Source: Haloarcula halophila (GTDB lineage Archaea; Halobacteriota; Halobacteria; Halobacteriales; Haloarculaceae). From it: 64,000 nt of DNA. The position numbers and the translations under genes were made by a program. Shown here in pieces: positions 9,435-41,684 of this stretch (within the stretch, counting starts at the first letter, position 1; each line of letters begins with the position of its first letter). Below the pieces are notes generated by a model, which saw nothing but the letters and a program-made list of their open reading frames with translations, did not search any database and had not been told where the DNA came from. Location of the stretch: positions 1 to 64,000 of the forward strand of contig NZ_CP119561.1 of the NCBI RefSeq assembly GCF_029278565.1, given 5' to 3'.

Positions 9435-10297
9435 CTATCCCGTCCCTGCCTGCATCTGCACGCAGAGATGAGCTTGTCCTGGAACAGTAGGAACACGATG
9501 AACAGCGGCAGCGAGATGAGCGCCAGGTTCGCCATCAAGCGGTTAGATTCCTGAGCGTAGACGCTCTGCAGTGTGGTCGCGCCCACGGGCAGGGTGTACG
9601 CCGCCTCGTTCTGCAGAACGATCAGCGGCCAGAGATACTGGTTCCAGCTCCAGACGAACACGAACAGCGCCAGGGCCGTGATCACCGGCAGCGACAGCGG
9701 AAGGATGATTTGGGCGTAGATGCGGAACGTCGAGAAGCCGTCCAGGCGAGCTGACTCCTCAAGATCCTCGGGGATGTCCCGGAAGAACTGCACTAGCAGG
9801 AACACCCCGAGTGGCCCGGCGACGAACGGAAAAACAAGGGCCTGGTAGCTGTTGACCCACCCTAGGCGATTGATCAGCGTGAATAGCGGGATAACGTTGA
9901 TCTGGGGCGGAACCATGAATGACGCGATGATGATCCCCAGAATGGCCTTGCGTCCCGGCCACTCTAGGCGCGTCAGCGAGAACGCCACCATGGAGTCGAC
10001 CACGACGATGAGAGCGGTCGTGGTGCTGGCGATGATGAACGTGTTGAGGATCCAGCGTCCGAGCAGGTCGCTCGTGGTGATCGTCTCGATCCAGAACGCG
10101 AGCGTCACCCGGGTGGGGACCCACTGGAAGCCGAACAGTTGTGTCGAGGGGGTCACTGACAGCGCGAACATCCGGAGCAGAGGGATGAACCACAGCAGCG
10201 CCAGGCCGTACAGGACCACGTAGACGCCGACCTCGTAGAGGGTCTGAACGTCCACCCGGACGTCGATCAGGTCTTTGGCCGTGTCGGCAAACGACAT
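9435..10297 (-). CDS. Sugar ABC transporter permease (MalG/UgpE type), small C-terminal frameshift
   Basis: The protein starts MSFADTAKDLIDVRVDVQ and has six membrane segments. The EAA loop of CUT1 permeases is visible as EESARLDGFSTFRIYAQIILP. Near 9466 the frame shifts: one frame reads on into the next gene, while the other gives MQAGTG and stops at 9435, 3 nt before the DUF624-like start. The ATG at 10297 overlaps the TGA of the partner permease, so the two are translationally coupled. It forms the membrane channel with the other permease for import of an oligosaccharide, plausibly a fructan/sucrose-type sugar given the GH32 gene. Confidence 0.85.
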
Positions 10298-11207
10298 CAG
10301 CCCTCCACCCCTGGCCGACGAGGTAGTAGTTGATGATTGAGACCCCAACGAGGATAATCAGGATGACGTAGCCGACGGCGGCGCCGTACCCAAGGTCGAA
10401 CGTCTGGAAGCCCAGCTGGTAGAGGTAGTACACCAGGGTATTGGTCGAACCGTTCGGACCGCCTGTCGTCATCGTCTGGACTTGGCCGAACACCCGGAAC
10501 TGGAAGACGGTTCCCGCGATCAGCACGAACATGATGGAGTTGCGCATCTGTGGGAGAGTGACGTCCTTGAACTGCCGGAGAGGACCAGCACCGTCGAGTT
10601 GGGCGGCCTCATAGAGGCGCTCGGAGACGCCCTGTCTGCCCGCCAGCAGGATTGCGAAATAGAAGCCGGCCTGCCACCAGACGGTCACCAGGGCCAGTGC
10701 GGGCATCGCGAACGCTTCCTGGCCGAGGACGTTGCCCACGAGCCAGCCGACGTGATGGGTGAAAGCGCCGTTTGCCGAGTACAGCTGCAGCCAGAGGAAC
10801 CCGACGATAGAGACGGTCATGACGTACGGGACAAAGTAGAAGAACTTCAGCACCTTCGTACCCTTCACGCCGCGGTTGATCCCCAGCGCCATCGCGAGGC
10901 TGACGAGCAACAGCAACGGGACCGTCAGCACGACGAACCAGGTGGTGTTCTTGAGCGCCTGCCAGAACATCGGGTCCTGAAGCAGAGTCGCGTAGTTCTG
11001 GAGGCCGACGAACTCCGACTGCGCCGGGTTCAGAAGGTTCCACTCGAAGAAGCTCATGTACAGTCCTTTCAATAAGGGGTACACGAGGAACACCGCGAAG
11101 ATGGCGAGGTACGGCAGCGCGAAGGCGTACGCCTCGAGTGTCTCCCGGTCGATCCACTGTCGGAGGTCGGCCGCGAACGCCGGTCCGGTATCCGATTCCA
11201 CCGACAT
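10297..11207 (-). CDS. Sugar ABC transporter permease (MalF/UgpA type), frameshift near the C-terminus
   Basis: The N-terminus MSVESDTGPAFAADLRQWID is cytoplasmic and is followed by AYAFALPYLAIFAVFLVYPL, the first of about six membrane spans. The EAA motif reads YEAAQLDGAGPLRQFKDVTLP. At about 10311 a G4 run must be G5 for the frame to close as LVGQGVEG and TGA at 10297; otherwise the frame runs on without meaning. The start at 11207 follows the binding-protein stop by 1 nt. Confidence 0.85.
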
Positions 11208-26823: not shown

Positions 26824-26934
26824 AGTGTATCGGTGGTATCTTGGACTCATCCCCGCTCGGCGATTAAACTCCTACGGAAACCAAGAGTAACCAGAGACGC
26901 TGGTTCTAAACCCTCCCCTATTGTGAGTGCACAT

Positions 26935-27591
26935 ATGACCCCTGCTGACGTCGCTGACGTGTTCGCCTCGACCAGAGAAACGCTTGAGAAAGCAGGTATG
27001 GCCGATGACTTCTTTCTGGATCTTGTCGCTTCCCGCCTTATAGTAGAACGGGTCGGTGAATCGAGTAATCAGGATTGGTGGGAGTCACGGGTTCTGTCTG
27101 GGACTGGTCGCACCCGGCTGTCTGAAGTAACCCCAAAAACACGGCTGAAATCCCGAATCACTCTCGCATTGAAAGTCGGCCGCAAAGCAGAATCGGATCG
27201 AGTTGCTGATGACTCAATCTCGCTTTTCTCCTTTGGGCCCCAGATAGAATCACGCCTTACCGCTGCAATCGAGGAACTGGAGAGCAACGACGAACTGACG
27301 TTTGAAGCACTCGAAGACCTGTCGGTCCAGCCGCTGGAAGAGGGCTGGACAGACAGTATTATTACCGCAACTGCGTCGAATATCTCCAGTTCAGACACCA
27401 CTGAGCCTCAGCAGAATCCAGGGACGGGTGAATCATATCTGGTTGGCGAGAGAAGTTATACGCAAGATGAGATTGAGCCCGACAAATGGAGAATCCTCAC
27501 CACTCTCCTCCGGGGCTACGGGCAGTGCACCGACCAGCTTCAGGTGCCGTACTACACCCTTGAGTCAGAACTTAAATCAGAGAACGCGTGA
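26935..27591 (+). CDS. brxE: BrxE-like protein, first gene of the BREX operon
   Basis: The 218-residue protein begins MTPADVADVFASTRETLE. Residues ~30-75 (LVASRLIVERVGE, QDWWESRVLS, LSEVTPKTRLKSRI, then ISLFSFGPQIE) follow the order of conserved positions I recall for BrxE of type 6 BREX systems (RLLVGYLGE-like, WW, P-K/R-T, LFR/LF). A TATA-like TTCTAAA ~30 nt upstream supports 26935. It precedes brxA by 9 nt. The role of BrxE is not known in the family. Assignment is by motif order, not alignment, so moderate confidence. Confidence 0.6.
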   Translation: MTPADVADVFASTRETLEKAGMADDFFLDLVASRLIVERVGESSNQDWWESRVLSGTGRTRLSEVTPKTRLKSRITLALKVGRKAESDRVADDSISLFSFGPQIESRLTAAIEELESNDELTFEALEDLSVQPLEEGWTDSIITATASNISSSDTTEPQQNPGTGESYLVGERSYTQDEIEPDKWRILTTLLRGYGQCTDQLQVPYYTLESELKSENA

Positions 27592-27600
27592 TGAGTTCGT

Positions 27601-28413
27601 ATGAGTAACGAACCCGTCGAACCAGAGGATGGAGAAGAGGTAGAGAACGAAGAGAGCCTCGACCCGAAAATCGCCCATCACAGCACGTACATCGACGAGA
27701 CGAAACGGATTCTCCAAACCTACGTCGAATGTGGTTCCTACGAGGAGCTGGAACGCCGTGTCGTCGAGGGGAATATCCTGAACAAGAATACTGACGAATA
27801 TAGAACGAACATTCTTCGGGAGGTTACGCGTCGACACATCCCCGACAAAGAGGAGTACACCGAGACCCCGCTGATGCAGGTGATAACCTCGGAGGTCCGT
27901 AGTGACGTTATCGACTGGTGTCTCTACTACGAGTTCGCCCAAGATCCGTTCATCCGACTCGTTACCACCGATTTCCTCTACCCCGAATTTGAGCGTGGAA
28001 CGCTCTCCGTCCAAGCAGTCGACATCGTAGAGTTCATCGAATCGATTCAGGAGAACTACGCCGACCTGCGGGATCGCTCTGAGTCAACAATAAACGAGGC
28101 CGCTACGAAGTACCTCACCGCCCTCCGCAACTTCGGTCTCTTAGAGGGAACCCAACGGAAGGAATTTGCAGTCACATACATCCCTGATGAGACTATCGCG
28201 TACGTGGTGTATCGACTATTCCAGAAAGACGTGAACTCGGCATCAGAGATTATTGAACACGACGACTGGAAACTGTTCCTTATGAACGAGTCGGAAGTAC
28301 AGCGACGGATTCGAGATATCTCCCCGCAGTACGTAAATTATGAGAAACGTGGCTCTACACAACGACTCGTGAGAAAGCACGACAGTATGGAGGATCTCAT
28401 CGATGCCTTCTGA
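27601..28413 (+). CDS. brxA: BrxA (DUF1819) BREX protein
   Basis: The 270-residue protein has features of the DUF1819 family: LDPKIAHHSTYIDETKRILQ, then NILNKNTDEYRTNILREVTR and WCLYYEFAQDPFIRLVTTDF with FLYPEFERGTLS. BrxA is a small DNA-binding protein of BREX; its exact part in phage exclusion is not settled. An acidic N-terminal tail of ~20 residues precedes the domain. It overlaps brxB by 11 nt, implying coupled translation. Confidence 0.85.
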   Translation: MSNEPVEPEDGEEVENEESLDPKIAHHSTYIDETKRILQTYVECGSYEELERRVVEGNILNKNTDEYRTNILREVTRRHIPDKEEYTETPLMQVITSEVRSDVIDWCLYYEFAQDPFIRLVTTDFLYPEFERGTLSVQAVDIVEFIESIQENYADLRDRSESTINEAATKYLTALRNFGLLEGTQRKEFAVTYIPDETIAYVVYRLFQKDVNSASEIIEHDDWKLFLMNESEVQRRIRDISPQYVNYEKRGSTQRLVRKHDSMEDLIDAF

Positions 28414-28972
28414 GTTCCAGGAACGGCTCGAAGAGGTCGAACGGCTCGTTCGAGATGACCGTGACGAGGTCGGGAAGCGAGCGGGGGTCCCATTCATCGT
28501 ATTCACGTACGACCCGGGCGACGAAATTGAGGTCGATGAAGAGGTTCGAAACCTCATCGAGAAACTGGAATATCACGACCAGAACGTCGCAGCAATCGAT
28601 ATGCGTGATCTGGTCTTCACGATCCTCGAAGAACGCGGGATTCTGGATAACGTCATTGACCTCGAACGCCGAGACAAAGAGCAGCTACTCGACGGCCTGA
28701 AATCGTCGCTGCTGGACGACGGTGAGATGGGGAAGCTGGCTTCAGCAATCGCCGAACAGGCAGAGACAGCAGATACTGTCATCGTCTACCGGATGGGTAT
28801 TCTCTATCCGTTTGCAAGCGCGTCCACTCTGATGGGACAATTAGAAACGAATACGCCGGACGAGACCCCAATCGTATTCTGTTACCCGGCGACAGTCGAT
28901 GACAAGAGCTTAAGATTCCTCGATGAATCTGAAGGAACATATTACCGCGCAAGGGTGATCGGACATGAGTGA
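28403..28972 (+). CDS. brxB: BrxB (DUF1788) BREX protein
   Basis: The 189-residue protein includes PFIVFTYDPGDEIEVDEEVR and AIDMRDLVFTILEERGILD, ending with TPIVFCYPATVDDKSLRFLD, in line with the DUF1788 family. BrxB is a core component present in nearly all BREX types, function unknown. It overlaps brxA by 11 nt and brxC by 8 nt. Confidence 0.9.
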   Translation: MPSEFQERLEEVERLVRDDRDEVGKRAGVPFIVFTYDPGDEIEVDEEVRNLIEKLEYHDQNVAAIDMRDLVFTILEERGILDNVIDLERRDKEQLLDGLKSSLLDDGEMGKLASAIAEQAETADTVIVYRMGILYPFASASTLMGQLETNTPDETPIVFCYPATVDDKSLRFLDESEGTYYRARVIGHE

Positions 28973-31900
28973 CACTACTACATCACACCAGATACACGAA
29001 ATCTTCTACCGGTCGATCAATCGGAAAATCGACCGCGTCGTCAAGGTCGACAACGACGACCCGAGTGTCGTCAAGAAAGAGCTTGAAGAGTACATCCTCA
29101 CACCGCAGCTCGAACGGCACTTTTCGGACGCATTAGAGGCCGTCATCGACACCGAACACGCACAGACGGAAGACGTCGGCATGTGGGTCTCGGGGTTCTT
29201 CGGTTCCGGGAAGAGCCACTTCATGAAGATCCTCGGGCACGTCCTGGAAAACCGCGAATTCGACGATACCCAGGCGGCCGATATGTTCCGGGATCGCATC
29301 GAGGGCAACGAAATGCTCGACGGTGCGGTCGGCTCCGTGACGCAGAAATTCGACTCGGAGGTGCTGATGTTTCAGATCGGCGCGAAAGCTGATGCCTCCG
29401 GGAGCGAGTCAATCACGGAGATCATTCACCGGGAGTTCAACACCTCACGTGGCTACGCGTCGATGCCCTGGGTCGCCCAAATGGAGCAGGAACTCGAATC
29501 TAGGGGAGTCTACGACGACTTCGTCAACGCCATCGAGACGAACACCGGGAAAGACTGGACGGAGGCCCGCAAGGACGCTATGTTCGTCCGGTCGGACATG
29601 GAGACTGCCTTGGTCGAGGCAACCGACGAATTCGACGACGAAGACGATGCGGCTCGGGCGATTGATGACGTTCAGGATAACGTCCTGATCAACCCTTCGA
29701 CGCTCGCTGAGGACATCGTGGACTACGTCGAGAAACGGGAGGAGGAGACGGGAGACAACTGTCGGTACTTCGTCTTCATCGACGAGATCTCCCAATTCAT
29801 CGGCGACGACGGACAACTCCTCTTGGAGCTACAGAGCATCGTCGAGGAATTCGGACAGAAGGGCAAGGGGAAAATCTTCCTCGGAGTCACGTCTCAGGAG
29901 CAGCTCCAACAGCTGATTCCCGGCGTGCTGGAAAAGGAAGCCGAGGAATCGAAGGTCATCGACCGCTTCCCACATCGGTTCGACCTCACCTCCGAGAACC
30001 TGGATAAAGTCGTCCGCGACCGTGTTCTCAGTAAAAAGGGGAGTACAGGGGTACAATCGGTGATCTTTACGACGAGCATGAAGGGTTCCTCTCGGCAAAG
30101 TATAAACTCGAATCTGCCAAAGTCTGAAACCGATTACTCGGGACAACTTCATCGACTGTTACCCGTTCCTTCCCTACCAGCTCGACATCCTTCCGGAAAT
30201 TTTCAAGTCACTCGGAAAAGGCTCCGACGATCAGTTGGCCGGGAGTGAGCGGACGCTGATTGACGTCACACAGAGCGTCCTTAAAGACGAGGAGTACCTC
30301 TACAACGAGGAACTTGGGGCGCTGGTCACGCTGGACATGATCTTCGACGAGATCAGCAACGACATTCCCAGCAGTGACGTCAAATCCATCCGCGAGGCGA
30401 AACCGAAGGACGCCGACACGGAGACCGCACGGCGCGTCCTCAAATCTCTCTACCTCCTCCAGCAGCTCCCCTGGATTCCGAACACAGCGGACAACATTGC
30501 CACGTCACTCCAGCGTGAACTCGGGCCAACCCAGGAGTTGGAGGGCGAGGTGGAGGATACGCTTGACGCGCTCGTCGACGCCGGCTTTGTCGGCCGGAGC
30601 GAAGAAGGATACCGGTTCCTCCGCGAAACTGAACGTGAGCTCGAAAACGAGATTAAGGGGATCGAAGTCGGTCCTGGCGACATCCGCCGGTCGTCCAAGC
30701 GCTTCCTGAACGACATCCTCGACGAAACCTCTCGCGTCAACTACGAGGGGAAGACGTTCCAGCTGAACTTGAACATCGACGGTGAGGAGATCACGTCTAA
30801 GGGCTACATCGACCTGAAGACCTACTCGCCGATCTACCAGCGATACGAGGACCTCGACCCGGACGGTCTGAAGACGCAGAGCTTCAGTGAGGACGATTCC
30901 CTCTACTGGATCGCCGACGACGAGAAGCAACACACCATCTACGACAAGCTGAAATCGATCTACCAGATCAACACCGTCGTCAAAGAGAAGCGCGGGAACG
31001 AACTCAGCCAGGAAGAACAGGAAGCACTCGGACAGAAGCAAGAGGACCTCCAGCGCCTCCGCAGCGAAGTCGAGCGCGAGTTCAAACGCAGCTTCCAACG
31101 CGGCGTACTGATCTACAACGGCGATACCGAGGAGTTCGACGCGACCAACACCTCACTCAGTTCGCTCGTATCACGGAAGACAGACAACGCCATCCCGAAG
31201 GTCTTCCACAAGTTCAACCACGGTTCTGCTTCAGTGAAGGACCGTCATATCAAGGACATATTCGGTGACCTTGATAAGTCGTCAACTCCCGCAGCCCTCA
31301 CCGAACTGGGTGTCATTCAGGACGGAGACCTTCTTGCGGAAGCATACATCGCGTCTGAAGTCGAAGACGAAATCCAGAGCCGCGAAAAAGCCGGTCAAGA
31401 CCGTACTGGAGACGACCTAATCAGCCACTTCGCACAGCCGCCATACGGCTGGAGCAGAAACGTCGTCAGACTCGCCGCTGCCGTCCTCTTCCGACACGGT
31501 GCTATCATCCCGACGTACAAGGAGCGAACGTACAGCACGTATACGGAGGACGGCGCACAGGAGCTGTTCACCCAGGTTACGAAGTTCAAGAACACCTCCT
31601 TCGACGAGCGGGAGACTGTTGACGTCGAAACGCGAGAGGACGCAAAGCAACTCCTCGACCGGCTGTTCGACCGCAAAGTCCAATCCACCGACCAAGCAGT
31701 CGATGAGGGGATCCGCGAGGAAGCGAATACATGGGAGTCTACCACGAGCACCCTGCTTTCGCAATTGCGGCGAGTAGGCTTCCCGCTGGCCGACGACGTC
31801 GAGGACTTCCAGAACAGACTCAACAACCTCCTCCAGCAGCCCACCTCCGCCAAGCGCATCAAGAAGTTCGCCGAGTTCGAGGACGAACTGGAGAACCTCG

Positions 31901-32604
31901 CTAAAACGGCAAAAGCAGTTGCCGAGTTCTGTGGCGAAACGGGTGGCGAGAACCACCTGAAGGAGTACGAAACGATTCAGGACTTCATCTCTGGAGAGTG
32001 GGAAACACTCGTGGATGAAGCAGCTGATCACGACATCGTTCACATAAGCGACGAAGCTCGTGACGCTGCTGACCGCGTCAAGAACACGCTGGACACCGAG
32101 GGTGTCATTGAGCAGTGGAACGACGTCAAGACCGATTATCGGACTGCAGCGGAGGCCTTCGCCTCGACGTACGAGGAACTGTACGAACAGCGCTATGAGA
32201 CCTACACTGCGTCCATCGAAAACGTCCGTGCGTACGCAGGTGACGACATCGACGACAATGACCTGGAGTCGGCAATATCGGACTTGACGGAGCGCCAGGG
32301 CGAGGGATCGGTCGATCTGGACATCTCCAGCAAGGACCACATCAACCCCACACCTTCGCTCACACGCCTTATCGAGCACATCCAGACTGTCGATGCGTAC
32401 GAGAGCGCAGCAAAGAACGAAATCGACGACATCGAGGATGATGACGACGATGGGAAGACCCGCAAGAAAGTGGACACGTCCGACATCTTCGGGAACACCG
32501 TCGTGACTGAGGTTGACGACATCGAGAAGCCAATCACCGACCTCCGAGAGAAGGTCGAAGAACTCCTTGACCAAGAGGGAGACGTCGAGATCCGGTTCCG
32601 GTAG
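28965..32604 (+). CDS. brxC: BrxC/PglY ATPase, two single-base frameshifts
   Basis: The N-terminal half has Walker A GFFGSGKSHFMKILGHVLEN (residues ~75) and the acidic FVFIDEISQFIGDDGQ (Walker B). Around 30040 a G run must gain one base to read KKGEYRGTIGDLYDEHEGFL, and near 30115 another base is missing before ITRDNFIDCYPFLPYQLDI and the C-terminal 790 residues, which include a coiled-coil region and end with VEELLDQEGDVEIRFR. Total length (~1210 residues) is normal for BrxC. It is the large ATPase of BREX and acts with PglX and PglZ. As read, only the ATPase half would be made. Confidence 0.9.
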
Positions 32605-32683: not shown

Positions 32684-32796
32684 TACTATAAGAGACGCCA
32701 ACTGCTTGTCGGTGGTATGTCATCGCGGGCGGGAATCACGACACAGCGTACTGCCGTCCCGCCCGTTTCGTGGCAGTACGCGACCCTCTAATATCC
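32684..32796 (+). promoter_or_regulatory. Promoter and leader of pglX with interlocked stems
   Basis: A TATA-like ACTATAAG (about 32686-32693) lies ~27 nt before an ATG at 32717 that opens a 24-codon frame. The leader contains two perfect stems: CGGGCGGGA (32726-32734) with TCCCGCCCG (32757-32765), and GCGTACTGCC (32746-32755) with GGCAGTACGC (32772-32781). Their order A-B-A'-B' is that of an H-type pseudoknot. The small frame ends at 32791, 5 nt before the pglX ATG. Confidence 0.5.
32717..32791 (+). CDS. Possible 24-residue leader peptide upstream of pglX
   Basis: The frame begins MSSRAGITTQRTAV and ends WQYATL before TAA at 32789-32791. It covers both stems of the leader and would place terminating ribosomes directly ahead of the pglX start. 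It may simply be a chance frame; the near-leaderless distance to the TATA-like element is the main argument for it. Confidence 0.3.
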   Translation: MSSRAGITTQRTAVPPVSWQYATL

Positions 32797-35700
32797 ATGT
32801 CCACGACACACGGTCAACCTGGTCTCTCGTCGGATCAACGCTCAACCATCCGAAGCACTATCATCAGCACACGCCACACGCTCGAAGACGAGCTTCGCCG
32901 CCAGCTCGAAAAGTACGGCATCTATGAGGACAAGAAACTTCCACAGGATCAGCTGACGCATCTCTCTGCCGAGGAACTCCACACCCGCGATAGAATAGAC
33001 GCAGCCATCGAACGAGAACTCGAATCCACGGATGGAAACCTGGAACGGTCGATCACTAACTACGTCCGCGAAGCCACGAAGACCTATCTCAACCGATTCG
33101 TCGCGCTAAAAACCATCGAGGTTCGTGGTCTCGTCGAGGAGACCATCACTGAACGGCCGGAGTACGGCAACCGGTCGTACATGCACCACACCGTGGCCGA
33201 AATCGCTGGTGAACTCACCAACGCGCAAGACGACGGTTTTGGTGCCGCACTTGACCTAGCGTACCAGGAGATCGGTGCGGAGATTCGGATGATCTTCGAG
33301 GAATCCGAACACACCGCTATTGACCTCGATGCGCAGGTTCGAGAAGAGGTTCTCGACGAATTGGACGCAATTGACGACGAAGCCTGGGAGAGCGACGAAG
33401 CTCTGGGCTGGGTGTACCAGTATTTCGGTGAGGAGGAGCGTGAGGATATCGACGAACGCATCGACGAAGAGAATTACAAAGTCTCAGGTACCGATATAGC
33501 AACAAAGACCCAGCTTTTCACGCCACGTTATATTGTCGAATGGATGGTTGATAATTCTCTTGGGCGGACGTGGCTTGAAATGAAAGGGGAGCGGACGAAT
33601 ATCGACAGTGAGGAGAATTGCTTCTACCTTGCACCCCCCCAAGACTCACTAATTAACCGGGAAGAAAAGTCAGTTGAGGAAATTACGGTTCTTGACCCCG
33701 CCTGTGGCAGCGGTCATATGCTGTTTTATTCTTTTGACATCCTTTATCAAATGTATCTGGAGGAGGGGAAGTCCCAGAGAAATACATACCGCGGGAAATT
33801 CTCAGAAACAACCTCTATGGTATCGATATCGATTCAGGGGCTGCGCAAATCGCCGCGCTCTCGCTTTATTTGAAGGCCAAAGAGCAATCACCAGAAGTTG
33901 CAATCCCACAGCTGAACATCGCTTCAGCCGACGCGGTACTTATTAACGGAGATAGGAAGCAGGAGGTACTTGAACGAACAGAGTCGGAGCTCGAAGAAGA
34001 AATACTAGAGCAACTCTGGCGAAGCTTCGATAACATCCGAGAGTTCGGCAGTCTCATCCGTATTGAGGATCGGATTGAATCGATTCTTGATGAGCACCGT
34101 GACTCAATTCAAGAATCAGGCCAGTCTCAATTCACGTCAGAGGGAGGGCTTGCGACTCAAAGCTCATTTGTTACTAGTGAAGGTGGCGAAGAAACGTGGG
34201 AAGAAGTAAAGAATCGACTCCTTGACTCAGTTAGGGAACTGGCGACTGAAGCTTTGGATCATAACGACCCCGTTGAGGAGATGTTTGCAGAAGAAGTGGA
34301 AAAGACAGTTGAATTAGTGGATCTACTCGTTGCGGACTACAGTGTTGTCGTCTCTAACCCCCCATATCTTGATAGCGGTAAAATGGGCGATGACCTGACT
34401 CAGTTCCTTAAGGACACTTACAAAAGCAGCAGGGATACCTATGCTGCATTCATTGAGCGGAACACAGAGTTTCTCGCCCCTGATGGACTAGCGTCTATGA
34501 TCACCCCAGAGACATTTATGTTCAATTACAGCTTCCGGGGCCTTCGGCCAAAACTTCTAGAGAACTCGGAGTTCGTTGATGTCGTTCATCTTACTAACCG
34601 AGATGAAGCTTACATGAATGTCTGTACACTGATTTCTAACTCCAAGCACAACCGCCGGTCCCGTTTTATTCGTTTAATAGGAGCAGACGATAGGCCAGCA
34701 GCATTAAACAATACAATAACGGACCTTAGGGTAGGAGACAGTTCAGAGCGACAGTACTTCGCTAACCAGTCAGCATTCCTGGAAATTGATCGATCTCCAT
34801 TTATCTATTGGTTTGGGAAAGAAGTCTTGGACCTATTCATTAAGTATGGGAATCTAAAAGATACTGCTGATGTCTTGAGGGGACTTGACACCGGAAATGA
34901 CGACCGTTTTGTTCGGTATGACTGGGAAGTTGACCCGAACGATAATTCTTGGAACAGGTATGTAATGAGCGGCGAGGGAGAGCCATTCTTCGAAGCCTCA
35001 AATATGAAAGCATTGTGGGAAAATAACGGAGCAGAAATCAAATCAACCGATGATAGTATCGTCCCCAGCGAGGACAGATACTTTGATGAAGGAATGACAT
35101 ACCGAAGGTTTGGCGATCTTGTCGTTCGTCACCTCCCAGCTAATTGGATTCCGAGTGACGGGAGCCCATTTATTGGGCCACACGAGAATGACCGAATACT
35201 TCACATTCTTGGCTATCTCAATTCATCACTGGCGGAATTCGTTATTGAGGGTCTGAATCCGGGCCTGAACATTCAGATTGGTGACGTTGAACGTATCCCT
35301 ATCGACACTAGTTGGCGGAACGATGAAATCGAACGTCTATCAGAAATTGCTATTGAAGTGCAGGAAGAACGGCAATCCTATTTAGAAACTGCTCCAGTTT
35401 ATCACGGAGGTGAGAAGTTCAGAAGTGAGTCAATGAGTGAATATCTCTTCAAAGAAGATCTTCTTGATTCGGCTTTGCTGGTTATTCGGCATAAGATCTC
35501 AGAAGCAGTTTTCGACTATTACGAAATATCTAACGACACGAGAGAGCAAATTTACCAGGAGAGTGAACGAGTGATCGGAAAAGATTACGTACTGACGTCT
35601 GACCAGCCAGTTCCGGAGCTAGTCGATCAAATTGGTGTGGAGCCAACGGTCGTAACAGATGAAGAATATCAAAAACTTAGGGGGGCGTTTGAATCCTTCT

Positions 35701-36461
35701 CTGGTGATGATCTACAAGAAGCTTCAAAAGAACTCGGCGTCTCCCCATTTACGATTGCAGATCTTCGCCGTGAATCATATGATGAAGAGCGTAAAGAGAT
35801 ATATGCTGAGGATCAGCTTTCGTTTGCAATAGGACATGCGCTTGGTCACTGGAATACCTTCGACCAGCTTCCGGCACCCGATAGTGAAATTGTTCCAATT
35901 GGTGATAGTTATGAAGAGAATATCGGTTGGTATGTAGATGAAGTGGTTCAGCATTTAACGGGAGACGATGAATGGCGACCTCGATTTAATGACCATTTGG
36001 GGCGAGAGGTGGCTGACTGGATTCAGAATCGGTTCTTCCGATATCACCACTGCAAAGAATATCGTCGCCGAGGGCAGCGTATTCCGATTTATTGGCAAAT
36101 CGAAAGCCCTGCTGAGGAGTTCAGTTGCTTCCTTTATTACCACGGAATAGATGAAAATACCCTTCCGAAGCTCCGAGGACAGTATCTTGATCCGCGGATC
36201 AACGAGCTCGAAAATGAACTCGAAACCTTAAACGCTCAGACAAACCGGGAAAATCCAGACAAAGATCTCCTGAATAGACAGGAGGAGGTCCAGACCGAAC
36301 TTGATGATCTCGAACAATTCCGTGAAACCATAGATAAAATGATTGACGACGGCGTCACAGTTGACGTTGAGAAGGGTATTTGGGAGAACCTCAAGGAATG
36401 GGATCAGTACGAAGTCCTCGAAACTGGGCTTCCCAAACTGAAGTCCAGTTACTCTCGATGA
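32797..36461 (+). CDS. pglX: PglX adenine-specific DNA methyltransferase, one frameshift in a G run
   Basis: The N-terminal ~220 residues are a helical PglX-specific region. The methyltransferase domain shows motif I EITVLDPACGSGHMLFY (residues ~310) and, after the frameshift near 33768, motif IV VVVSNPPYLDSGKMG. A GAGGAGGGGAAGTC sequence must have one more G for the frame to read EEGEVPEKYIPREILRNN and continue LYGIDIDSGAAQIAALSLYL. PglX methylates host DNA at a BREX-specific site. The start at 32797 follows a separate promoter and leader. Base composition becomes clearly more AT-rich from about 33490, which suggests exchange of the specificity part. Confidence 0.9.
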
Positions 36462-36485: not shown

Positions 36486-37025
36486 ATGGATTTAGAGGTA
36501 GTTAACGCAGTAGGGTCGGGTGATTTGGGGATAGAGATTGATCTAAATCGACTAACAGCCGATTTCGAGGAAGTTGAGTTTGATCCAGATAAGTACCCAG
36601 GTGCCTATGTAAGGCTCGAAGATGTGGAGCCACTGATTACGGTTTATAGAACTGGAAAATATATTATTACAGGATCAACGTCCGAAGAGGAAGCCTACCA
36701 CTGTAGAAGACGTTTCTTGGAACTTCTTTCTGACAGGGGAGTACTGGATACACCAGATGATAAATGGTTCTCTATGCAGAATTACGTATGTACAGGAGAA
36801 TTAGACCAGGTTCAGAACCTAAACGCGCTCGCAATTGGTCTGGGATTAGAGTATACAGAGTATGAGCCTGAACAGTTCCCAGGTCTCGTTTTTCGGCCTG
36901 ACGACCACCCAGTAGTGATATTGATATTTGCGTCCGGTAAAGTGGTCGTCACTGGAGCAAAGGACATTGATGCGGCAGAGGAGGCATTTCAGAGCTTAAA
37001 GGGAGATTTAGATGCTCTGGTGTAA
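36486..37025 (+). CDS. tbp: TATA-box-binding protein (TBP) paralogue inside the BREX operon
   Basis: At 179 residues it has the length of archaeal TBP and two sequence repeats. The first reads VVNAVGSGDLGIEIDLNRLT, then YPGAYVRLEDVEPLITVYRT and GKYIITGSTSEEEAYH; the second reads NYVCTGELDQ, QFPGLVFRPDDHPVVILIFA and GKVVVTGAKDIDAAEEAF. This is the two-fold saddle of TBP, and the second half matches the classic FPGLVYRL..SGK.V.TGAK motif, but the first half is divergent. It starts 24 nt after pglX and is AT-rich like it. It probably recruits RNA polymerase to alternative promoters, perhaps those of this island. Confidence 0.85.
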   Translation: MDLEVVNAVGSGDLGIEIDLNRLTADFEEVEFDPDKYPGAYVRLEDVEPLITVYRTGKYIITGSTSEEEAYHCRRRFLELLSDRGVLDTPDDKWFSMQNYVCTGELDQVQNLNALAIGLGLEYTEYEPEQFPGLVFRPDDHPVVILIFASGKVVVTGAKDIDAAEEAFQSLKGDLDALV

Positions 37026-37106
37026 TGTGAATAAGGGATGGACACCAATCGAAGCACGAAAGACTACCCGAAACAACCTTCAGCCTATCGTAGGAAAGGA
37101 GTTTTA

Positions 37107-39533
37107 ATGGGAGATCTCGCGGACAGCATTATCACGGAACTCCGGCAGAAGTTCGACCGACACCCGGTCTGGGTGTGGTACGACGCCCAGGAGAAGTACA
37201 AGGGCGTCCTCGACGAGGTCGAAGCTGCCCTCGACAACGTTACGCTCGCGCGCTACGATGGCAGCTACTTCGAACTGAAGCGCCGCCTCTACGAAGAAGA
37301 CCCGAACTACGAGAAGAACTGGCTGTTCTACATCCCTGAATCAAGGAACGAGGCCGAGTGGTTCCGCGACATCCACGCACTCGGGCGACAGTACCGTGTA
37401 GGCCAGGACATCGACGACACGCCCGTGACGCAGTTCCTCGTCGAGCACGACGAGGAGATACCCGATGCCTACGAGGACTGGGGCCAGAACCGCGAGGTTC
37501 AGCGCCTGGCGTTCTTCTGTGTTCTCTTCGACACTGCTGGCCCGGAGACGGACGAGTGGGTACGGGCCTACCTCTCGAACCCGGAAGAGTATCGTGAGAC
37601 AATTGAGGACAACGCGATGGCAGACGCCTGGGACGCCCAGCTCCGAGAGGAGTACGGTGTCACGGCGGGGCTCGACCCGAAAGAGCTAGCGACTCAGCTT
37701 CTCTTCGGCGAGGTGGCCAGCCGAGCACCGACGTCCCGGTACGACGAACTCGCGGCGGACGATACCCGCGCAGCTGCGACGTTCTGTGACGAGTGGCAGC
37801 AGTACGCCCCTGCCGAGTTCCGGCGCTACGCCGAACGAATCGAGGAAGACTACGACCTTGCGGAGACCGTCGTGGAATCGGAACGCGCCCACTGGGACGC
37901 TACTGCGTTCAAAGGTATCGACATGGGCCTCATCCGGCTCGTGATGGAACGACTCGCCGAAGAGACGTACGCTGATCTCCCCGACATCGCCGCCGATCTC
38001 GAACAGACCGTCACGAGCCGCCAGAACAGCTTCTGGAGCAACGAGGACCTCGTCGATTGGTCCGTCCCTGCCCGGGCCATCGAAACCCTCCAGCAGATTG
38101 GAACCGTCGACGCGGACGAGGCGAAGACCCTCACGTCAGAAGAACTCGCCCAGGCCTACACGGGCGACGACGGCTGGTGGCAGATCGACGCGTCCTATCG
38201 GCGATATATCGATGCAACCCGGAAGACCACGTTCGTCTACCCGAAGGAACCGGTGGTGAAACGGCGGGTCACCAGACACTACATGTCCTTCCTCCAGGGC
38301 GTCAATCGCCCGCTCGCCGATATCCTGAGTGACGATCCGACGCTCGGAACCCCCCAGGCCTCGTTCTACGAGGAGTTCGCTGACTTGGATAACGGAACGG
38401 CGATCATCATCTGTGACGGCCTGCGCTACGAACTCGCCGAAGCGATCAAGGAGAATCTCGGCCGCCAGACCGACTTCGAACAGAACCTGAGCGCTGTCAG
38501 TGCAGCGCTGCCGTCGATTACCGAAGTTGGGATGGCAGCACACCTCCCCGGAGAACTCGGACTCTCTCTGGACGATGACGACCTCGTCGTGACCAGCGGT
38601 GGCGAGGAGATGAACGGCAAATCGGACCGCATTGAACGGCTCAGCAACGCGGGCTTCGAAGTCGTAGACATGGACGAGGTGAGCGACATCTCGCTGGAGC
38701 AGCTGACCGAGTCCGAGCCAGTTCCTCGCGTCGTCTACTCCGGGACGATAGACAAACTCGGTGAGAATCTCGACGACGACGAAGCGTTCAGCCAAGTCGC
38801 CTCGCACGTCGACGACGTCGAACGTACAGTCCAGCGACTCAAGCAAGCCGGATACACCCGATTCGTCATCACAAGCGATCACGGGTTCCTCTACACAGAC
38901 CGACTATCTGACGATCTCAAGGTCGAATCCCCTGACCTCGCCTCCATCGTAAAGCGACGGTTCGCCGCTGCCGACAGCGATACTCCACTCGTCGATACGG
39001 ACGAGTTCATCGAGATCGACCCCGATGCGCTTTCTGACCTCGGAATCGATGCCCCCGACCTGAAGTTGCTGTTCCCCCGAAGTGTCGCGTGCTTCAAGGC
39101 ACAGGGTGGGAACATGCGCTACTTCCACGGCGGGATTTCTCTCCAAGAGCTGCTTGTCCCGTGTCTCACCGTAACGACCGAAGGAATCGAGGAAAGCGCG
39201 TCGATCACTTACGACGTTTCCATCCCCGATCCGATCACGAACTCCATTGTCCCTGTGGAAATCGAGGCCAAAAGCGGTCAAGTTGCCTTCGACCCAGCAC
39301 CGACTCTGGAAGTTCGTGCGAACATCGACGGTGAGCCCGTTGCAGACCCTGCTTCGATGGAGATCTCGCCGGGAACCAATACCACCAGAGTCAGGCTCAA
39401 ACAAGGCGCGATCTCCGGAGAGGACACGGTCCAATTCGAGGTCATAGATACGGACACCAGAGAGACGATAAGCAAGCAGACGGTGAATCTCGATCTGCTC
39501 TTCGGGGATGACGATATGGGATTCGACGTCTAA
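37107..39533 (+). CDS. pglZ: PglZ alkaline-phosphatase-superfamily BREX protein
   Basis: The likely start is MGDLADSIITELRQKFD at 37107, preceded by a GGAG ribosome-binding-like site; the open frame extends 23 codons upstream without similarity. The 808-residue protein contains the phosphatase-like core with GTAIIICDGLRYELAEAI (metal-binding Asp) and FVITSDHGFLYTD (Asp-His pair), then ends with a beta-rich domain. PglZ is a core BREX effector of unknown exact chemistry; loss of the active site abolishes function in studied systems. GC content returns to the island norm here. Confidence 0.9.
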   Translation: MGDLADSIITELRQKFDRHPVWVWYDAQEKYKGVLDEVEAALDNVTLARYDGSYFELKRRLYEEDPNYEKNWLFYIPESRNEAEWFRDIHALGRQYRVGQDIDDTPVTQFLVEHDEEIPDAYEDWGQNREVQRLAFFCVLFDTAGPETDEWVRAYLSNPEEYRETIEDNAMADAWDAQLREEYGVTAGLDPKELATQLLFGEVASRAPTSRYDELAADDTRAAATFCDEWQQYAPAEFRRYAERIEEDYDLAETVVESERAHWDATAFKGIDMGLIRLVMERLAEETYADLPDIAADLEQTVTSRQNSFWSNEDLVDWSVPARAIETLQQIGTVDADEAKTLTSEELAQAYTGDDGWWQIDASYRRYIDATRKTTFVYPKEPVVKRRVTRHYMSFLQGVNRPLADILSDDPTLGTPQASFYEEFADLDNGTAIIICDGLRYELAEAIKENLGRQTDFEQNLSAVSAALPSITEVGMAAHLPGELGLSLDDDDLVVTSGGEEMNGKSDRIERLSNAGFEVVDMDEVSDISLEQLTESEPVPRVVYSGTIDKLGENLDDDEAFSQVASHVDDVERTVQRLKQAGYTRFVITSDHGFLYTDRLSDDLKVESPDLASIVKRRFAAADSDTPLVDTDEFIEIDPDALSDLGIDAPDLKLLFPRSVACFKAQGGNMRYFHGGISLQELLVPCLTVTTEGIEESASITYDVSIPDPITNSIVPVEIEAKSGQVAFDPAPTLEVRANIDGEPVADPASMEISPGTNTTRVRLKQGAISGEDTVQFEVIDTDTRETISKQTVNLDLLFGDDDMGFDV

Positions 39534-39656: not shown

Positions 39657-41684
39657 ATGACTACTGAGGACGTCGACCAGAAAGCACTCGACGTCTTTCC
39701 CGGACGCGTCGTCCGGAAGGATCTCGTTCAGGACATCAAATCTGGCGCGAACGTACCCACCTACGTTCTGGAGTACCTTATCGGGCAGTACTGCGCCACG
39801 GATGATGAGGAATCACTTGAGGAGGGACTCGAAAAGGTCAAAGAGATTCTGTCGAAGCACTTCGTCAGGCCTGACGAAGCCGAATTCGTAAAAAGCGAAG
39901 TGCGCGAACGAGGGCGCTACCGGGTCATCGACAAGGTGAACGTCCGACTCGACGAGCAACAGGATGCCTACATCGGATCGTTCGTGAATCTCGGCCTGAG
40001 CGATGTGGAGATCAACGAGCATCTCGTCAGTAAACATCCCAAGCTCCTCGGCGGCGGTGTGTGGGCTATCATCGACCTGGAATACCTCCCCGATAACGCA
40101 AACAGTCCGAAGAGCCTGTTCGGAATCGACTCGTTCAAACCGATTCAGGTTTCGAATCTCGACCTCGACCAGCTGAAGGACCGTCGCCGTGAATTCACGC
40201 GCGACGAATGGCTTGACCTCCTGCTCCAAAGCATTGGATACGATCCTTCCGCATTTTCGGAGCGCGAGAAGTTCCTCTTCCTCACTCGATGTATTCCGCT
40301 CGTTGAGTCGAACTACAACTATGTCGAGCTGGGTCCCCGTGGAACCGGGAAGAGCTACCTGTATCGGGAGATTAGCCCGCACTCCATCCTCATCTCCGGC
40401 GGTAAGACGACCGTTGCAAAGCTCTTCCTGAATCTCAACACCGGTCGGATTGGCCTCGTCGGCCGCTGGGACGTCGTCGCCTTCGACGAAGTCGGTGGGC
40501 TCCAGTTCAGCGACTCCGAAGCAGTCCAGATGCTCAAGGACTACATGGAGTCCGGGAGCTTCTCCCGCGGAACTGAAGAGCTCACTGCACAGGCTTCGAT
40601 GGTCTACGTCGGAAACATCGACCTCGACGTCGAAGGCGTTCTCAAGAGCTCCCATCTCTTTGAACCGTTCCCCGAGGATATGCAGGATCTCGCCCTTATC
40701 GACCGCTTCCACTACTATCTTCCCGGATGGGAAGTTCCGAAGATGCGCTCCGAGTTCTTCGGTGACCAGTTCGGATTTATCGTGGACTACTTCGCCGAAT
40801 TCGTGCGCGAACTCCGAAAGGAATCCTACAGCGACGTGATCAACGAGGAGTTTGCATTCGGCGATCACCTGAACCAACGAGACGAAAGGGCTGTCCGGAA
40901 AACCGTCTCTGGTCTGCTCAAATTACTTCACCCGCATGGGGAGTACACCAAGGAAGAACTCCGCGAATACCTGGAATTCGCAATGGAGGGCCGGAGAAGG
41001 GTGAAGGAGCAACTGAAGCGGATGGGAGGAATGGAATATCGAGCAGTGGAGTTCTCGTACCTCGATCTTGAGACGAAAGAGGAAATCTACGTGCCGGTTC
41101 CGGAGGAGGCCGATGAGACACTCATTCCCCCAGGAACACAGCAACCTGGGACGGTTTACACAATCGGGAACAGCGAGGGTCGCCACGCACCATTCCGAAT
41201 TGAAACACAGGCACTCCCAGGATCAGGTAAGACGAATATCTCGGGGACTCCGGGAAGTGACATGAAAGAATCGTTCGAAACGGCGTGCGATTATCTCCAG
41301 GCAAATATGCGAGAACTCCGCCGCGATGAGACGCTGGAAGAGTACAACATTAATGTTCAAGTGCTCAATCCCTCCGACGCAAACGAGGGCGGCGAGACGA
41401 GTGTCGGCTTGCTTGTAGGGATTGTTTCAGGTATTCTTGGCCGGCCTGTCCGCTCTCAGGCAGTTGTTCTGGGTGCTATGAGTTTGATGGGGGAGTTGGT
41501 CGCCGTGAGTTCTCTGGTCGACAAGCTACAATTAGCAGCAGATTCCGGGGCTAAGACAGTGTTACTGCCAGCCAAAAACAAGGAGGATATGGCGAAGATA
41601 CCGGACGAGCTTCTCGATCAGCTTCAGCTTGTCTTCTACACAGATCCACTTGACGCCGCTAGCAAGGCGATTCAGATAGACTGA
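39657..41684 (+). CDS. brxL: BrxL Lon-like AAA+ protein
   Basis: The 675-residue protein has the BrxL N-terminus (VFPGRVVRKDLVQDIKSGAN, VPTYVLEYLIGQYC), Walker A VELGPRGTGKSYLYRE (residues ~225) and Walker B-like WDVVAFDEVGGLQFSD. The C-terminal Lon-type domain reads NEGGETSVGLLVGIVSGILG and MSLMGELVAVSSLVDKLQLA; the Ser is present but the usual Lys position carries Val, so peptidase activity is doubtful. In type 1 BREX, BrxL is the last core gene and is needed for phage restriction. It lies 123 nt after pglZ. Confidence 0.92.
   Translation: MTTEDVDQKALDVFPGRVVRKDLVQDIKSGANVPTYVLEYLIGQYCATDDEESLEEGLEKVKEILSKHFVRPDEAEFVKSEVRERGRYRVIDKVNVRLDEQQDAYIGSFVNLGLSDVEINEHLVSKHPKLLGGGVWAIIDLEYLPDNANSPKSLFGIDSFKPIQVSNLDLDQLKDRRREFTRDEWLDLLLQSIGYDPSAFSEREKFLFLTRCIPLVESNYNYVELGPRGTGKSYLYREISPHSILISGGKTTVAKLFLNLNTGRIGLVGRWDVVAFDEVGGLQFSDSEAVQMLKDYMESGSFSRGTEELTAQASMVYVGNIDLDVEGVLKSSHLFEPFPEDMQDLALIDRFHYYLPGWEVPKMRSEFFGDQFGFIVDYFAEFVRELRKESYSDVINEEFAFGDHLNQRDERAVRKTVSGLLKLLHPHGEYTKEELREYLEFAMEGRRRVKEQLKRMGGMEYRAVEFSYLDLETKEEIYVPVPEEADETLIPPGTQQPGTVYTIGNSEGRHAPFRIETQALPGSGKTNISGTPGSDMKESFETACDYLQANMRELRRDETLEEYNINVQVLNPSDANEGGETSVGLLVGIVSGILGRPVRSQAVVLGAMSLMGELVAVSSLVDKLQLAADSGAKTVLLPAKNKEDMAKIPDELLDQLQLVFYTDPLDAASKAIQID

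Follow-up and report, generated by a model that had tools for sequence, protein, structure and literature searches.

A TbpC-type TATA-binding protein in a haloarchaeal BREX operon and its relatives beside DNA methyltransferase genes

The BREX operon and its TBP gene

The window analysed here is a stretch of 64,000 nucleotides of the Haloarcula halophila genome, lying at the start of contig C3 (363,408 bases). Pfam and PADLOC assignments, together with alignments, reveal an operon of the order brxE-brxA-brxB-brxC-pglX-TBP-pglZ-brxL, in which TBP is a TATA-binding protein gene:

26833..27591, + strand: BrxE-family gene just upstream of brxA (NF033447, 108.7 bits against a cut-off of 40; 5' boundary provisional)
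27601..28413, + strand: brxA (Pfam BrxA, 60.7 bits; PADLOC BrxA)
28403..28972, + strand: brxB (Pfam BrxB, 64.2 bits)
28965..32604, + strand: brxC, split over two frames here (the PADLOC BrxC match spans the two ORFs)
32770..36461, + strand: pglX adenine methyltransferase, likewise split over two frames here (PADLOC PglX)
36486..37025, + strand: TbpC-type accessory TATA-binding protein, 179 aa (Pfam TBP, NCBIfam NF001593, tree, AlphaFold model)
37038..39533, + strand: pglZ, conserved part from about 37107 (Pfam PglZ, 81.9 bits; alignment to locus L014)
39657..41684, + strand: brxL (Pfam BrxL_ATPase, 470.5 bits; TIGR02653, 910.7 bits)

All six core genes of BREX type 1 (brxA, brxB, brxC, pglX, pglZ and brxL) are present in order, and the operon differs from that type by the upstream BrxE-family gene and by the TBP gene inserted between pglX and pglZ. 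The same gene order, with every gene intact, occurs in Halogeometricum limi (locus L014), where brxC is one ORF of 1214 aa and the TBP is 88% identical to that of the window.

The two ends of contig C3 overlap by about 65 kb, and the compared stretches are 99.95% identical with differences that are almost only indels. An apparent second genomic copy of the operon (C3:325-340 kb) was therefore rejected, and the overlapping ends are best explained by a circular replicon of some 298 kb that was left unclosed in the assembly. At this far end pglX forms an intact frame of 1256 codons, which disfavours its reading as a pseudogene, while pglZ of that copy carries a frame break of its own. Because pglX is whole there, the frame breaks in the window are probably sequencing errors; those in brxC, in pglX and in the second copy of pglZ are all probably sequencing or assembly errors.

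The sequence-only reading had described a TBP paralogue between pglX and pglZ in which both repeats are recognisable, the first divergent and the second canonical. This description holds throughout: a full-length TBP ORF, starting with ATG, occupies exactly positions 36486-37025 (+), separated by 24 bases from the end of pglX (36461) and followed by pglZ. The protein matches Pfam TBP (PF00352; 148 bits, E 7e-44) in two stretches covering both repeats, the better of them at residues 95-171, and scores 205 bits with NCBIfam NF001593 against a cut-off of 181. The TBP of M. jannaschii (2z8u) aligns in phmmer to residues 2-174 (E 1e-33). An AlphaFold model built on a shallow alignment of four sequences has a pLDDT of 82, and solved TBPs superpose on it over the entire length, most with a TM of 0.83-0.89; profile and model thus agree on the pair of repeats that forms the TBP saddle.

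Residue signature, selection and phylogeny of TbpC-like TBPs

The intercalating phenylalanines and the stirrup residues are numbered after yeast TBP, and their roles are known from established TBP-DNA and TBP-TFIIB structures. The two repeats of the window protein compare with these as follows:

36486..36755, + strand: TBP repeat 1; Y37 and Y54 replace the intercalating Phe (yeast F99, F116), and T52 replaces L114
36768..37022, + strand: TBP repeat 2; F131 and F148 (yeast F190, F207) are kept, as is the TFB-contact stirrup E127/E129

The alignment of 81 TbpC-like clade members with 34 housekeeping-type TBPs shows that these changes are a property of the clade. Tyr stands at F99 in 61/81 members and at F116 in 74/81, with Thr at L114 in 66/81; repeat 2 keeps F190 in 78/81 and F207 in 79/81, and the stirrup keeps E186 in 80 and E188 in all 81. 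Each of the four intercalating Phe is present in 33-34 of the 34 housekeeping-type proteins. In the window protein the stirrup stretch YEPEQF is whole, consistent at the sequence level with TFB contact. The expectation that the DNA-contact phenylalanines are retained stands for repeat 2 (F131, F148) and fails for repeat 1, where the pair is Tyr and the contact would be altered. The complete set of four is likewise missing from known members of the family such as TbpC, and the Tyr pair (Y37, Y54) limits any claim of canonical DNA binding by the window protein.

TbpC-like TBPs evolve under purifying selection, with dN/dS about 0.1: values range from 0.07 to 0.22 across 12 close clade pairs (0.12 for the window against Halogeometricum limi), and two housekeeping-type pairs gave 0.03-0.05. 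The kept stirrup and repeat-2 Phe fit a factor that binds TFB and would not be expected in a decaying gene, and the window TBP is a genuine paralogue kept by selection.

Our search of 391 Halobacteria genomes recovered about 60 TBPs that are 49-88% identical to the window TBP, and housekeeping-type ones at 41-44%. In a tree of 61 TBPs, 41 form a TbpC-like clade (support 99/98, internal branch 0.76) that includes the window protein, a plasmid TBP of Halobacterium sp. NRC-1 and two viral TBPs, with all housekeeping-type proteins outside. Constraining the window TBP to the housekeeping group of its host costs 122 log-likelihood units and is rejected (p-AU 4e-5), so that the earlier proposal of a TBP distinct from the housekeeping one is upheld. 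Compared with housekeeping TbpE-type proteins, the window TBP shares the fold, repeat 2 and the stirrup; it differs in an identity of 41-44% or less and in its separate clade, and TbpE-type proteins keep all four Phe. Many clade members are plasmid-borne. We found no close relatives outside Halobacteria at E 1e-43 among 393 genomes of the phylum, and an IMG/VR scan with the window TBP as query returned none.

The H. halophila genome holds three distinct TBP genes: the chromosomal housekeeping gene, whose product is 38% identical to the window TBP, the window gene itself, and a third on the same contig (L146, C3:286501-306400; TBP at 9722-10306). The third is very divergent and lies 46 bp from an ORF of 1165 aa with an NPPY methyltransferase motif.

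A tbpC-like clade with a missing N-terminal Phe pair was described in 2014; its members were considered nonfunctional or very specialised, and TbpC transcripts were unseen under laboratory conditions (PMC4230888). Knockout of tbpC in NRC-1 had no apparent phenotype, and TbpD, a different haloarchaeal TBP, influences hundreds of genes (PMC2121645). The window protein, lacking the N-terminal pair and keeping the C-terminal one, has the features that define TbpC-like TBPs. From the same missing pair and from its plasmid location, we infer that the NRC-1 protein at locus L204 is the product of the gene named tbpC. It belongs to the same clade as the window protein, at 53% identity, has likewise lost the N-terminal and kept the C-terminal Phe pair, and its gene too lies behind DNA methyltransferase and helicase genes; the window copy differs in sitting in BREX.

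BREX loci with and without a TBP

A PglZ search was positive in 24/391 genomes, and six of the 22 haloarchaeal BREX loci examined contain TBP genes: the window, L014, L186, L195 (with two), L199 and L200. Elsewhere the slot between pglX and pglZ holds an EVE-like small protein, a 353-aa protein, an 830-aa AAA-type protein, or nothing. Judged from this gene content, the TBP is an accessory gene in a variable pglX-pglZ slot of haloarchaeal BREX. The EVE-like proteins (L188, 11962-12489; L191, 8172-8687; L194, 11974-12489) were recognised by eye as of a modified-base-reader type and had no family match in the profile search; the 830-aa proteins (L192, 10004-12493; L198, 10003-12492) carry an N-terminal Walker-A ATPase motif. 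In two loci (L186, 11873-12457, - strand; L199, 7500-8132, + strand) TBP-like proteins between pglX and pglZ are encoded against the direction of the operon; only their repeat 2 is clear, repeat 1 is hardly recognisable and the N-terminal half is unfamiliar.

Close sister operons do without the gene. Over brxA-C and pglZ-brxL, locus L184 is 90-92% identical to the window and L187 is 94-97% identical to L014, and neither has a TBP. The region upstream of brxA, mostly the end of the upstream coding region, is alignable among nearly all BREX loci. Since TBP-plus and TBP-minus operons have this region in common, the TBP would not be obligatory for BREX transcription, and the idea that BREX transcription generally needs it is weakened by the comparison. 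The same near-identical operons weaken the earlier suggestion of a BREX promoter that this TBP alone would serve, and a dedicated BREX promoter found no support in the upstream sequences.

Exchange of the TBP and pglX as one cassette was also considered and rejected for BREX: between the window and H. limi the TBPs are 88% identical and the PglX proteins 51% even in their best segment, so the TBP does not track PglX. The tree separates the BREX TBPs of the window and L014 from those of L195 and L200; as their monophyly is not rejected (p-AU 0.24), multiple acquisition is unproven.

Methyltransferase neighbourhood and possible roles

Beyond BREX, we compared neighbourhoods at loci picked by TBP sequence and not by context, with at least 5 kb available on both sides, and counted as methyltransferase-like any ORF of at least 400 aa with the adenine-methyltransferase motif NPP[YFW] within 5 kb of the TBP. 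Such an ORF is present at 53/59 TbpC-like loci and at 1/29 housekeeping-type loci (Fisher p 5e-16, for loci that are not phylogenetically independent). Among the immediate-neighbour proteins of the clade (n=81), Pfam N6_Mtase was found in 19 and Eco57I in 16; the 25 most frequent families of the control neighbour proteins (n=64) include neither. The link of the window TBP to defence genes, suspected from the window alone, is supported both in its BREX operon and across the clade.

The systems concerned are diverse: type I hsdM-hsdS-hsdR, type IIG enzymes, MADS-like methyltransferases and BREX, as well as one that combines a 1380-aa DrmMI-like methyltransferase with a 988-aa BrxHII/DrmD-like helicase. 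On pNRC200 of NRC-1 the order is methyltransferase-helicase-TBP. In the virus HRTV-9 a type IIG enzyme gene precedes the TBP, and in HJTV-2 the TBP lies near an N4-cytosine methyltransferase and an Eco29kI-type nuclease. In helicase systems the TBP start codon overlaps the helicase stop codon, and at many clade loci the operon ends with the TBP, which is translationally coupled; at times it lies on the other strand or is divergently transcribed from the methyltransferase. Several systems (L080, L094, L100, L101, L104 and L195) contain two different TBP genes; in one such arrangement the first stands between the methyltransferase and helicase genes and the second follows the helicase. At L082, L083, L087, L089, L091, L092 and other loci, the methyltransferase-helicase-TBP genes are directly preceded by a small conserved ORF (about 65 codons) whose product, judged by eye, may be AbrB-like.

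Conserved TATA-like elements stand upstream of those TBP genes with a separate promoter region. In four genomes (L053, L054, L055 and L069) a conserved CAGCAAGTGTATAGACG-like element precedes the TBP and is a candidate promoter or autoregulatory site. Comparison of the upstream regions established no motif specific to TbpC-linked operons and none that is clade-wide. TFB-like matches occur at only 5 of about 71 clade loci and are absent from the window; with no TFB gene regularly linked, the partner would be a host TFB.

On this comparative evidence, the window gene encodes a TbpC-type accessory TBP that is an exchangeable partner of methyltransferase defence cassettes, and it may well act as the cassette's own regulator, a reading we adopt tentatively. 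Repeat 2 and the stirrup would bind a host TFB and grip a TATA-like site at its 5' half, and the Tyr/Thr-modified repeat 1 would touch the 3' half less strongly or in another way. Together, TBP and TFB could increase or dampen transcription of the methyltransferase and the genes that go with it, in the way that control (C) proteins set the timing of restriction-modification genes in bacteria. C proteins are small DNA-binding proteins encoded beside the methyltransferase in bacterial restriction-modification systems; the analogy, drawn from linkage, lies in that placement, and the difference is that C proteins are HTH proteins and the window protein a TBP. A stronger version would make TbpC-type TBPs a family of control proteins in archaea, recruited from a general transcription factor to serve mobile methyltransferase defence cassettes as their dedicated switch and possibly reading TATA-site methylation through the Tyr-modified repeat 1; we consider it unlikely. 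Several observations count against the cassette regulator: the upstream regions yielded no motif particular to TbpC-linked operons, and to this are added the upstream region common to BREX operons with and without the TBP, the lack of a regularly linked cognate TFB, and the tbpC deletion without apparent phenotype (PMC2121645). The last, translationally coupled position of the gene would suit a protein partner equally well.

Such a partner, a DNA-bending or targeting subunit of a methyltransferase/helicase complex with no role in transcription, is a somewhat unlikely reading. The adenine methyltransferase is indeed the constant neighbour across unrelated systems, the TBP start overlaps the helicase stop, and TBPs are listed among the parts of the TOTE and TALON conflict systems (PMC12458937). 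Against this, surface conservation is highest at the TFB-contact stirrup, sister systems without a TBP exist, near-identical BREX operons included, the gene is at times divergent or on the other strand, and the BREX TBP is conserved without regard to PglX. That the TBP might instead keep or switch on defence-gene transcription during viral takeover, or titrate a viral TFB, seems improbable. Haloarchaeal tailed viruses do encode transcription factors (a TFB in HRTV-DL1, PMC10544981; the TBPs of HRTV-9 and HJTV-2), and silence of TbpC under laboratory conditions (PMC4230888) would fit; the viral TBPs, however, adjoin viral restriction-modification genes and so mark cassettes, not necessarily takeover, and the sequence upstream of BREX is unchanged where the TBP is missing.

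Two further readings concern the clade as a whole. An alternative TBP of general use, acting at promoters in other parts of the genome and having defence neighbours only through a mobile lifestyle, would recall the breadth of TbpD (PMC2121645) and the plasmid location of many members; we think it quite improbable, as control TBPs, several of them also on small contigs or plasmids, are almost without methyltransferase linkage. Decay into a nonfunctional TBP, considered by earlier authors for the loss of the N-terminal Phe pair (PMC4230888) and compatible with the silent knockout (PMC2121645), is scarcely credible when dN/dS lies well under 1 in all 12 pairs, most of the clade carries the identical Tyr/Tyr/Thr change and repeat 2 is nearly invariant.

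The sequence-only reading had held a defence-linked TBP to be new. The TbpC-like clade itself has been known since 2014, given without genomic context in a paper whose main text mentions neither restriction nor methyltransferases (PMC4230888), and an archaeal restriction-modification survey does not mention TBP (PMC10609329). The nearest precedent is the mention of TBPs in TOTE and TALON (PMC12458937), which share a TBP gene inside a defence operon; TALON has ARMADA-like YprA, NERD nuclease and TPR-CSD genes, whereas the annotated genes of the window operon are those of BREX, with no member of these families identified among them. What stands of the claim is the link of TbpC-like TBPs to methyltransferase defence systems, for which we found no report in the open literature searched.

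For the TbpC-like TBPs, earlier set aside as possibly dead, selection and methyltransferase linkage together point to a likely and testable job, and the linkage spans several types of defence system as well as viruses. If the regulator reading is true, a general transcription factor would be in use as a private part of immune cassettes, possibly an archaeal answer to the regulation of restriction-modification genes on entry into a new host.
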